Assembly: GCA_017550285.1 (NCBI GenBank)
Contig: JAFZPP010000023.1
Coordinates: 1 to 64,000, forward strand
Direction of reading: 5' to 3'
Length of the DNA stretch: 64,000 nt
DNA from: Oscillospiraceae bacterium
GTDB lineage: Bacteria; Bacillota; Clostridia; Oscillospirales; Ruminococcaceae
Part shown: positions 2,096 through 63,372 of the stretch, piece after piece
Numbering within the stretch: the stretch's first letter is position 1
Layout of the letters: every line of letters starts with the position of its first letter
Translations under genes and position numbers: made by a program
The notes under the pieces: model-generated
Told to the model about the DNA's origin: nothing
The model's input: the letters and a program-made list of their open reading frames with translations, nothing else
Databases searched by the model: none

Positions 2096-3229
2096 ATGAA
2101 CATTCAGGAGCGCAGAAACAAGGACGGAAAGATCACCTCATATCGCATCAGGGTGTTCGATCATCGGGATACGCAGACTTACAGGCAGACTTACAGGCAG
2201 ATTTTCAGGACACTATCAATCAAGTATGATACCAGCAAGTCCGAAGCATGGAACCGAAAGAATGCTGAAAAGCAGGGCGCGATCTTTGAAAAGCAGATCG
2301 AGGAGCATACGATCAGCGATTCGCATATCACCTTTGACAGCTACTGCGAATACGCAATCGGCATGAAGGAGCAGGCAGGACTCTCTCCCTCGACGATCTA
2401 CAGCTACACCGGCTGCCGAAAGCGTGTCGCGCCGTACATCGGGCATATACAACTCAAACAGCTTACCCCTGCGGCAATCAACAAGGCGTATTCGGATATG
2501 TTGAGCGCAGGTGTATCAAAGGCTACGGTCTACCAGTATCATCTGTTTATCCATTCGATGCTCGCTATGGCGTTCAAGGAGAACCTTATCCCTCGCAACT
2601 ATGCCAGTGCAGCAACTCCGCCGAAGCGCGACTCAAAGGAAGTCGATGCCCTCTCAGAAGATGACATTAATGCATTTTTCAATACACTGTATGCTGACAA
2701 GAAGCACTATATGTATCAGGTCATGTTCAGTGTGATGCTTGCGACAGGATGCCGTATCGGTGAGATTTGTGCATTGACATGGGACAATATTGATTTTGAG
2801 ATGAATCGTATCCACATCTGCCGGCACTTTGTGATGAGCGATTCCGGTTCCCGTATCCAGGACGGCTGCAAGACCAACGCAGGTGACCGCTGGCTCACAA
2901 TGGACGAAGGTATCATGGAAATGCTCCAAGAGTACCGCACCTACTATCTGAAAAAGGCGGAACAATTCGGCAGAAAGTGGGATTATGAAGCAAATTCGGT
3001 ATTCTACGCTGAAAAGCGATACGGCGGTTGTATAACCCCCGATACGGTCCGTTCTTTTCTGAACAGTTTTACTGAAAAGAACGGACTGCCGCATATACAC
3101 CCGCACATGTTCCGCCACACGGCGGTTAGCCTCCAGCTTCAGGCGGGTATCAGCATTGCCGATGCAGCCAAGCGGGCAGTGCCCGCATGCATTGATCTAA
3201 AGTTCTCCGGCAGAAACCATAGATCATAA
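2096..3229 (+). pseudogene. Tyrosine recombinase/integrase, C-terminus truncated by a repeat
   Basis: The protein has the N-terminal SAM-like arm-binding region (SPSTIYSYTGCRKRVAPYIG) and most of the catalytic domain, including the arginine in ATGCRIGEICALTW and the HxxR box in HPHMFRHTAVSLQ. The reading frame then runs into repeat copy A at 3172 and stops at 3229. The later histidine/tryptophan box and the tyrosine nucleophile of the family are therefore absent, and the last ~20 residues come from repeat DNA. It should be inactive as a recombinase. The start at 2096 (MNIQERRNKDG) matches the usual beginning of Firmicute integrative-element integrases; a start at 2063 is also open. It marks a decayed integrative element. 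Confidence 0.75.
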
Positions 3230-3275
3230 ATAATACTGCTCTCCGCTTGCTTTTTTGCTGTATAATGTGCTATAA
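3172..3275 (+). repeat. 104-bp promoter repeat, copy A (outer unit of dimer)
   Basis: Order: palindrome GCGGGCAGTGCCCGC (3172-3186), ATGC, the box TTGATCTAAAG, a CTCCGGCAG box, ~35 variable bases, CTCTCCGC, then TTGCTTTTTT and TATAATGTGCTATAA. It is nearly identical to copy B for most of its length and matches the copies at 42335, 42438 and 63269. It interrupts the integrase. Its -10 region runs directly into the palindrome of copy B. Confidence 0.9.
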
Positions 3276-3379
3276 GGCGGCAGTGCCGCCCTCCATTGAC
3301 CTAAAGTTCTCCGGCAGAAAACACAGATCATAAATAATACTGCTCTCCGCTTGCTTTTTACCGTATAATGTGCTATAAT
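3276..3379 (+). repeat. 104-bp promoter repeat, copy B (inner unit of dimer)
   Basis: Palindrome GGCGGCAGTGCCGCC (3276-3290), then CTCC, the box TTGACCTAAAG and the same promoter end as copy A. The A/B junction reads TATAAGGCGGCAGTGCCGCC, exactly as at the D/C junction on the other strand near 42424-42443. The palindrome-to--10 distance is 104 bp, as in A, C and E. Confidence 0.9.
3351..3379 (+). promoter_or_regulatory. Promoter inside repeat copy B, driving the 3464 gene and trpS
   Basis: TTGCTT (3351-3356), 17-bp spacer, TATAAT (3374-3379); a second TATAAT lies at 3364. No other promoter is evident before the 3464 gene, so the repeat probably supplies it. Confidence 0.65.
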
Positions 3380-3463: not shown

Positions 3464-4009
3464 ATGGCTAACAACAATCCGAGCTTTATGAAAAGAGTTC
3501 CTGTCAGCAAGCCCTACCTCGTCACGAGAAATCAGGCACTGCGGCTGTCTCCGTCTAATTTCACCCAGTTCATGAAAGAGAGCACCGTCTACGGCGTTGT
3601 CGTCGATATGCCCATGGCACCGACCGTCATGACATCGCTCGCCTGCTACATCAACGGTGCCGCAAACCTCTATTTCAGCAACGGCAACGATTATTCCGGT
3701 GCTGCACAGCGTTATCCGGGCGTCGTACAGGCTGCACGCATTTTCGTCACCAATGCAGCCCGCTTCATCAGCGATGAAAACCGCGTCAATACGTTCGAGC
3801 TGCCGAACAGCAGATCACACTACGCCTATATCCTCACCACGAAGGGCATCCACCGCCTTGAGATCAACCCGATCTCGAGCCAGCAGAGCCCGGGCGAGCG
3901 CGCATTCATGACGCTCTATCAGCGTGTCATGGGCGAGCTTCATTCCGCACAGCTCAAGGATAAGGCAGCCGGTCTCGACCTTTCCGAAACGCTCGTCGCA
4001 ACCCGCTGA
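3464..4009 (+). CDS. Conserved-looking hypothetical protein upstream of trpS
   Basis: 181 residues beginning MANNNPSFMKRVPVSKPYLV, with no signal peptide, no membrane segment and no motif that I recognise. The composition is that of a soluble cytoplasmic protein. It starts behind AAAGGA at a suitable distance and ends 23 bp before trpS, so the two are probably co-transcribed from the repeat-borne promoter. Codon use matches the neighbouring housekeeping genes. I cannot assign a function; the link with trpS is positional only. Confidence 0.8.
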   Translation: MANNNPSFMKRVPVSKPYLVTRNQALRLSPSNFTQFMKESTVYGVVVDMPMAPTVMTSLACYINGAANLYFSNGNDYSGAAQRYPGVVQAARIFVTNAARFISDENRVNTFELPNSRSHYAYILTTKGIHRLEINPISSQQSPGERAFMTLYQRVMGELHSAQLKDKAAGLDLSETLVATR

Positions 4010-30782: not shown

Positions 30783-30793
30783 CGGATTGCATC

Positions 30794-30884
30794 AGGTGTT
30801 CCCTTCGGCGGCATGATCCGCATCAGGTCAAAGGGTCGGCATTGTGTATGCCCTCTCAGCCTGCCGCACAGACTCCCCCTCCGG
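30794..30884 (-). ncRNA. TPP riboswitch (THI element)
   Basis: On the minus strand it carries the conserved CTGAGAGGG, then ACCCTTTGACCTGATG, CGGATCATGCCG and GAAGGGAACA. This is the full THI-box pattern, with P1 formed by GGAGGGGG and the 3' end. With thiamine pyrophosphate bound, the downstream stem should form and stop transcription of thiT. Confidence 0.96.
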
Positions 30885-30895
30885 TTCCGGTGTTA

Positions 30896-42334: not shown

Positions 42335-42363
42335 ATTATAGCATATTATCTTGTAAAAAGCAA
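42335..42363 (-). promoter_or_regulatory. Promoter in repeat copy C, driving the DUF5662 gene
   Basis: TTGCTT, 17 bp, TATAAT, with the DUF5662 start codon 34 bp downstream. Confidence 0.7.
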
Positions 42364-42438
42364 GCGGAGAGTATGTGCTTTCATGATACGGCTAATCTGC
42401 CGGAGAGCTTTAGATCAAAGGAGGGCGGCACTGCCGCC
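42335..42438 (-). repeat. 104-bp promoter repeat, copy C (inner unit of dimer)
   Basis: Read on the minus strand: palindrome GGCGGCAGTGCCGCC (42424-42438), then CTCC, TTGATCTAAAG, CTCTCCGGCAG, a variable middle, CTCTCCGC, TTGCTT (42358-42363), 17 bp, TATAAT (42335-42340). It belongs to the same subtype as copies B and E. Confidence 0.92.
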
Positions 42439-42601
42439 TTATAGCATATTATCTTGCAAAAAGCAAGCGGAGAGCAGTTACTTTTCATTTACGGTTGTTG
42501 AGAAAAAGGAGGAAAGAGAAGGTAGAAAGAAGCGCGTTAAGAATGATTTTGCAAATGCGCATCCTGAGAACTTTAGATCAATGCATGCAGGCGCTGCCTG
42601 C
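42438..42601 (-). repeat. Promoter repeat, copy D (outer unit of dimer, 60 bp longer)
   Basis: Minus strand: palindrome GCAGGCAGCGCCTGC (42587-42601), ATGC, then TTGATCTAAAGTTCTC, a diverged and longer middle, CTGCTCTCCGC, TTGCTT (42461-42466), 17 bp, TATAAG (42438-42443). It shares the ATGC spacer and TTCTC variant with copy A. Confidence 0.8.
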
Positions 42602-63268: not shown

Positions 63269-63297
63269 ATTATAGCACATTACGATGCAAAAAGCAA
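63269..63297 (-). promoter_or_regulatory. Promoter in repeat copy E, driving the hydrolase pair
   Basis: TTGCTT, 17 bp, TATAAT; the start codon at 63223 lies 46 bp downstream. Confidence 0.7.
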
Positions 63298-63372
63298 GCT
63301 GAGAGCATCATGTTTTATGTTACAGCTTACCTGCCGGAGAGCTTTAGATCAATGGAGCCGCGCACAGCGCGG
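63269..63372 (-). repeat. 104-bp promoter repeat, copy E (single unit)
   Basis: Minus strand: palindrome CCGCGCTGTGCGCGG (63358-63372), CTCCA, TTGATCTAAAG, CTCTCCGGCAG, a variable middle, CTCTCAGC, TTGCTT (63292-63297), 17 bp, TATAAT (63269-63274). Exactly 104 bp from palindrome to -10. The palindrome abuts the stop codon of the gene at 63373. Confidence 0.92.

Follow-up and report, generated by a model that had tools for sequence, protein, structure and literature searches.

The 104-bp repeat described here, five copies of which lie in the analysed stretch of 64,000 nt (hereafter the window), is probably a small mobile promoter cassette that inserts into existing promoters and is moved in trans by a recombinase. 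The exact targeting of existing promoters is well supported by the junctions compared below; that the mobiliser is the tyrosine recombinase of integrative elements using the same promoter core is probable but unproven. In the proposed mechanism, a cassette running from a hairpin to a complete promoter would enter a resident promoter immediately behind its TATAA and in a single orientation, leaving the old promoter at the left, a new promoter at the right and the −10 core on both sides. Because the core would stand on both sides, the gene behind would retain a promoter and head-to-tail stacking of cassettes would be possible. The tyrosine recombinase of the element, or a close relative, would move the cassettes in trans and site-specifically at the promoter core, the hairpin may aid recognition or single-strand folding, and the new promoter would be active and drive the gene behind it.

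The repeat family and the anatomy of its units

All five copies claimed by the earlier note were found where it had placed them, and their boxes, palindrome and 17/18-nt promoter spacer match its description. Cassette A (3172..3275, forward strand, 104 bp) is of the T1 type and comprises the hairpin GCGGGCAGTGCCCGC (3172-3186), the box TTGATCTAAAG (3192-3202), a −35 element TTGCTT (3247-3252) and a TATAA (3271-3275), which is joined exactly to the hairpin of cassette B. Cassette B (3276..3378, forward strand), a T1 unit of 103 bp up to TATAA, carries the hairpin GGCGGCAGTGCCGCC and the box TTGACCTAAAG, followed by TTGCTT at 3351-3356, a 17-nt spacer and the −10 TATAAT at 3374-3379. The start codon of the next gene (3464) lies 85 nt beyond cassette B; this gene (3464..4009, forward strand) encodes a 181-aa protein with no Pfam or NCBIfam match and is followed by trpS (TIGR00233; 4033-5049). 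On the reverse strand, cassette C (42336..42438; T1, 103 bp; −10 TATAAT at 42340-42335, hairpin at 42424-42438) ends 34 nt before the start of a DUF5662 gene (PF18907; 41777..42301, reverse strand). Upstream of C on the same strand is cassette D (42439..42601; T2/T1 type), a longer relative of the usual unit, 163 bp in length with a pyrimidine-rich middle, the TATAA of which (TTATA on the plus strand, 42439-42443) abuts the hairpin of C. A gene of the VanZ-like family (PF04892; 42704-43201, forward strand) is divergent from these two cassettes. Cassette E (63270..63372, reverse strand; T1, 103 bp; −10 TATAAT at 63274-63269, hairpin at 63358-63372) stands before an alpha/beta hydrolase gene (PF00561; 62252..63223, reverse strand), has no core on its left and is preceded by a stop codon. 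The usual unit thus described measures 102-103 bp up to TATAA, with one additional T in A. The window also contains 36-bp tandem repeats (753-1112), in seven register copies within reading frame 2-1435. A known RNA family was rejected as an identity for the repeat, as the sole Rfam match in the window is a TPP riboswitch (30783-30889, reverse strand), which scores above gathering.

The window comes from a draft genome (3.4 Mb, 50 contigs) that is 96.35% complete. At least 56 repeat places were located in it by BLAST (E ≤ 0.001; 40 of 99 first-look candidates scored). The box pattern TTGATCTAAAGNTCTCCGGCAG has 51 sites genome-wide with up to three mismatches (reversed control: 0), and the hairpin-box core has 56 sites with up to two mismatches. 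The earlier note had set the absence of further copies as the outcome that would count against it; many were found, the 56 core sites standing against 0 in the control, and the copies are a real, large family, far above chance. Of 30 genomes of the genus, 12 contain the hairpin-box core, as against 0 of 31 from outside it, and the cassette family was found in one genus among the genomes searched. Exact cores occur in 57 named stretches from metagenome-assembled genomes labelled Ruminococcus sp., Oscillospiraceae, Clostridiales or Clostridia bacterium, with record titles mentioning goat omasum and pig.

Across 19 T1 seed copies, the common parts are the box TTGATCTAAAG, NTCTCCGGCAG, a variable middle, CTCTCCGC and the promoter TTGCTT-17/18-TGNTATAA. 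The 15-nt hairpin of these copies is kept by symmetry rather than by sequence, since 113 of 114 arm pairs are complementary even though the arms comprise three quite different sequences and one with a mismatch. Units of types T2 and T5 share the hairpin and the promoter end of T1 and differ in between, T2 having a pyrimidine-rich middle and T5 reading hairpin, CTCCCATG, then TTGAAATTT...TATAAT; middles and hairpins are shuffled between loci. The 104-bp repeat is one type in a wider class of promoter cassettes composed of a GC hairpin, a variable middle and a promoter. The two ends of a T1 unit are the hairpin and the promoter core, and no end-to-end inverted repeat was seen by eye in aligned T1 copies running from GCGGGC... 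to ...TGCTATAA.

The promoter end of the cassettes consists of TTGCTT or TTGAAA, 17-18 nt and the extended −10 TGNTATAA. Native TATAAT promoters were collected upstream of genes in five stretches of the source genome where no cassette box lies upstream (n = 28, at least one of which resembles a cassette end by eye). TTG was found at a spacing of 16-18 in 21 of these (2 at a shifted control spacing) and TGN before TATAAT in 18, so that the layout of the cassette promoter is that of the host. The commonest native −35 element is TTGACA (7/21), against TTGCTT in the cassette; a generic promoter scan gave no promoter call at the cassette ends, TTGCTT being a poor −35. In units placed behind another promoter, the hairpin falls at the start point expected for that promoter. 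The suggestion that the palindrome insulates the cassette from upstream genes found no support, and a terminator role was rejected, as the hairpin is followed by no T tract and coincides with no terminator-like site.

Partial units (32 head-only and 11 tail-only) outnumber the 36 full units of the source genome, and some head-only units are stacked as 31-bp repeats after CTAAAG. At five loci (L012, L018, L028, L030 and L100) one head adjoins another, the next hairpin coming at once after a box of the (T)GATC(T/G)AAAG type or a variant of it, so that a CTAAAG/hairpin junction exists as a second kind beside CTATAA/hairpin. At another locus (L112, 586-1212; genome G000, contig C6), two inverted hairpin-box heads enclose about 550 bp of a different dispersed repeat (GGCGGCTTAACGCTCCCAATC...) in a MITE-like arrangement. 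From the 32 head-only units and such inverted pairs, the hairpin-box head also exists outside promoters. Another dispersed repeat, a 55-60 bp sequence (L084, 1-57; genome G012), recurs with 90-100% identity at many sites in many genomes of the genus.

Junctions, the empty site and orientation towards genes

Wherever a promoter precedes a unit, the boundary of the unit is exactly the TATAA of that promoter. A scan of 373 RTGNTATAA cores in the loci examined gave 40 junctions with a GC hairpin, every one of them at offset 0; these loci were repeat-enriched and offset 0 was tested first. At random positions, with three offsets permitted, a hairpin was met in 124 of 12000. The join RTGNTATAAGCGGGYAGNDCCCGC (up to two mismatches) was found in 22 of 30 genus genomes as compared with 1 of 90 others, the single outside match lacking TATAA, and its reversed control gave 0 in every one of the 120 genomes searched. 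In a larger locus set, a second core lies within 330 bp at 64 of 69 junctions, delimiting units of 95-97 bp (35/64), 102-103 bp (20/64) or other lengths (9). The variable base N of TGNTATAA is identical on both sides of the unit in 53 of 64. When 31 tandem-like units were set aside, agreement was 26/33, where 20.4 would be expected from within-genome shuffling of right sides (p 0.0024); this test is conservative, as nine rows from loci without a genome assignment stay mostly unshuffled. Agreement at the R base was weaker (25/33, expected 19.0). A core on the left is absent (within two mismatches) from 19 of the 36 full units of the source genome, some of which lie after terminators and some after another head at CTAAAG, so that a plain core-by-core model would need later deletions or another route.

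A clean empty site was found at one locus, L011, by comparison with genome G012, the closest congener at the loci compared (85% identity in the L011 flank). In G012 the native promoter is uninterrupted, ...TTATGCTATAA running directly into TAGGTATAAGG, and at the same point the source genome carries one 103-bp T1 unit between ...ATATGTTATAA and TAGATATAATA, in the order native promoter to TATAA, unit, native start region. The old −35 element in the source genome reads TCGCAT versus TTGCAA in G012, a single case that is as would be expected if the cassette promoter had taken over.

Occupancy differs between the two genomes at five of five loci, a figure that gives no rate, as each locus was picked for a cassette in one of the two genomes. 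Besides L011, these include the DUF5662 locus, where D stands before C in the source genome and before an integrative element's left end in G012, the right end of that element lying before DUF5662 on another contig. Elsewhere in the genus this locus has T1 units (G004 and G010), T5-like units (G001 and G026) or no cassette (G003 and others). The hydrolase promoter carries E in the source genome and a different cassette with the same left boundary in G012, and two further promoters carry T1+T5 and T5+T5 in the source genome versus T1+T1 and T1 in G012.

The earlier note had also stated that in every copy the promoter is directed at a gene behind it, which is true in the window. With genes called by a custom codon-usage caller trained on the window, 32 of the 36 full units of the source genome face a gene in the same direction; one, the degenerate unit L036, faces a gene of opposite direction, and three have no gene in the stretch examined. 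In two of these three (L004 and L030), the next feature is an integrative element's left end. A cruder ORF caller gave 25 same, 10 opposite and 2 without a gene (n = 37). All 11 tail-only units face a gene. The 32 head-only units, which lack the promoter end, are not gene-directed, 18 of them facing a gene in the same direction and 10 one in the opposite direction, with no gene for the other 4; they count against the reading as promoter-targeting cassettes, and to these the earlier statement does not extend. Terminal cassettes chosen by the promoter pattern beside a hairpin lie before a start codon in 27 of 27 cases, at a distance of 33-163 nt (median 46). Orientation, empty site and differing occupancy together support the reading of the repeat as a promoter cassette.

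Integrative elements and the candidate mobiliser

Upstream of cassette A lies a truncated tyrosine recombinase gene (PF00589; 2096..3229, forward strand) of an integrative element, and the 3′ end of the gene overlaps the cassette. Its product scores 80.9 bits against the XerA/integron-integrase model, the cut-off of which is 220. The recombinase frame meets cassette A within AAGCG(A/G)GCAG, a sequence that intact recombinase genes share with the start of a cassette after TATAA; this suggests that the fusion arose by deletion between these shared letters.

Of the 30 genus genomes, 12 contain relatives of this recombinase (at least 66% identity), and the promoter-hairpin junction is present in each of these 12. 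The eight genomes without the junction have no recombinase relative at E ≤ 1e-30, and ten genomes, which are drafts, have the junction without a close relative. The chance of all 12 recombinase genomes falling among the 22 with junctions is 0.0075, calculated by hand in a way that ignores phylogeny and incompleteness.

Right ends could be read for 15 recombinase genes or remnants, at which a TTGAAA-like box is followed by TGNTATA. The end reads TGNTATAA in 14 of 15, the exception (L193) lacking TATAA. Eight right ends lead into a hairpin cassette or head (only a head in L192, and an imperfect hairpin in L196) and six into a gene start; these six were judged by eye, with DUF5662 alone checked. 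GTTGACC repeats precede the right-end box in most elements and are absent from L194, where the gene is cut short. At the left ends, the core lies exactly 124 bp before GTTGACCAAAAGTTG in six of six elements, which are related to each other; it sits in a recognisable cassette promoter in four and in a diverged one in a fifth (L219). The likeness of the box TTGATCTAAAG to the arm-like TTGACCAAAAG of the element is too weak by shuffling to support an arm-type site: 7, 48 and 54 of 1000 shuffles equalled it at three left ends, and at the one right end tested, where the likeness is absent, 1000 of 1000 shuffles did as well.

Complete elements were found in the source genome (contig C13, about 8.6 kb), in G003 (C18, about 9.4 kb) and in G021 (C43, about 12 kb). 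Each encodes the recombinase together with a small HTH-like protein, which falls below the Pfam cut-off in the two elements scanned. The element of the source genome encodes the PF00589 recombinase and a relaxase (PF03432), and that of G003 a Mob_Pre protein (PF01076) and a protein of 1591 aa that contains DEAD/Helicase_C and UvrD domains. Proteins of 1591-1592 aa occur in both the G003 (L216, 11469-16241) and the G021 (L219) elements, and in G003 the protein adjoins a small protein without a Pfam match, with which it may possibly form a defence module. More distant recombinases of the same genus (36-38% identity) have a tRNA-Met gene in two of three loci checked.

A phage origin was rejected: no exact junction was found in viral contigs searched with one palindrome type, and the best segments of 59 viral recombinase relatives are 20-36% identical. 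In plasmid and phage records, every match found was below 60% identity.

The core and its orientation are common to the cassettes and the integrative elements, and the two kinds of element adjoin one another at eight of 15 right ends and at a minimum of four of the six left ends. These observations speak against a rival reading, which we regard as unlikely yet worth weighing, in which another enzyme moves promoter-targeting cassettes, be it a transposase with a short target duplication NTATAA or a different recombinase, and the integrative elements share the target merely as a common conserved intergenic sequence. Such an enzyme would fit the absence of a close recombinase relative from 10 of the 22 junction-bearing genomes and the finding that, outside the core, the cassettes do not resemble the element ends. 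The two-sided agreement at N would likewise be explained by a duplication of NTATAA. On the cassette as a possible substrate of the element's recombinase, the observations are the shared core, the agreement at N (26/33 against 20.4) and the absence of a left core from 19/36 full units of the source genome.

The spread of a common promoter region by ordinary homologous recombination or slippage, with no dedicated mobility, appears improbable. The near identity of many tandem neighbours (31/64 units are tandem-like) and the shuffling of middles and hairpins between loci are features that it would produce, but one locus carries a 103-bp unit that is cleanly missing from the orthologous promoter, and the boundary is identical in 22 genomes, two observations that are difficult to reconcile with it. 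REP-like elements moved by a RAYT-type Y1 transposase share with this family short GC hairpins in intergenic arrays, a mosaic with other repeats and the abundance of head-only copies (32); such an origin is most improbable and was rejected, as full units end in a promoter core with no second hairpin and Y1 transposase (PF01797) genes number 0 in the source draft genome (96.35% complete) and occur in 3 of 30 genus genomes, of which G001 and G023 have junctions and G015 does not. The regulon of a binding protein is hard to square with the copying of whole units, tandem stacking and the empty site, and was likewise set aside.

Cassettes mobilised by the integrative-element recombinase are the reading that we prefer. 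At its widest, and put forward here tentatively as a possibility, it would describe a tyrosine-recombinase system of the genus with the sigma-A extended −10 as its attachment site, the promoter being restored on insertion, and with elements of 8.6-12 kb accompanied by swarms of 95-104 bp cassettes mobilised in trans.

Relation to known systems and significance

Mobile promoters, as reportedly described by Matus-Garcia et al. in 2012 and in related work, are short promoter-bearing sequences copied to many genes. That work is cited in PMC9208149. The cassettes are likewise short promoter-bearing sequences before many genes, with a similar promoter region found before different genes, and differ in having a defined unit, an exact −10 target, stacking and a candidate mobiliser. 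Integron gene cassettes are small non-autonomous units that form head-to-tail arrays and have a hairpin beside the recombination point. The promoter cassettes resemble them in each of these respects, but contain no gene, carry a promoter and are scattered over the chromosome. MITEs are non-autonomous intergenic elements of about 100 bp with terminal inverted repeats. The cassettes agree with them in size, autonomy and location, whereas a T1 unit has no terminal inverted repeats; some head-only relatives (L112) occur in inverted pairs, unlike T1 units. The earlier proposal of a MITE-like element is accordingly retained as to its non-autonomous nature, for which the clean empty site, the differing occupancy at five loci and the orientation speak, and abandoned as to a MITE in the strict sense.

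Integrative mobilizable elements have a recombinase, a relaxase and fixed ends, one of which restores the gene entered, for example a tRNA gene. By gene content, the elements found here have an integrase, a relaxase and fixed ends on both sides, and they resemble integrative mobilizable elements in these features and in restoring their target; streptococcal ICEs are a further comparison (PMC4701971). The restored target differs, being here the promoter −10 at different genes.

TnGBS and elements of the ISLre2/ISKra4 group have Mutator-like DDE transposases and insert, mostly in one orientation, at sigma-A promoters (PMC3942029). The cassettes too are found inserted, oriented, at promoters of different genes. 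These elements have a DDE transposase and inverted repeats, and TnGBS inserts 15-17 bp upstream of the −35 element (PMC3942029). The cassette junction, in contrast, is located within the promoter, immediately behind TATAA, and a tyrosine recombinase is encoded by the elements found at the cassette core. The cassettes do not occupy the TnGBS-type position, and promoter targeting as such is already known for DDE elements at 15-17 bp upstream of −35 (PMC3942029). Open-access literature, covered in part and by titles and abstract starts, yielded no paper on these repeats and no tyrosine recombinase with a promoter −10 as its target, nor insertion at the −10 with restoration linked to such an enzyme.

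The usual targets of integrases are tRNA or housekeeping genes, the end of which is restored. With a promoter −10 as the target, restored at each insertion, an element could, if the proposed reading is true, enter very many places harmlessly. It would also provide a physical mechanism for promoter propagation, and the promoters of the whole genome would then amount to an open, exchangeable cassette array. As occupancy differs at the five loci compared between two close genomes, regulation in gut bacteria could change rapidly in this way. In these Ruminococcus-like bacteria of the gut, the gene behind an insertion appears, from the sequences compared, to be left with a rebuilt switch and not a broken one.
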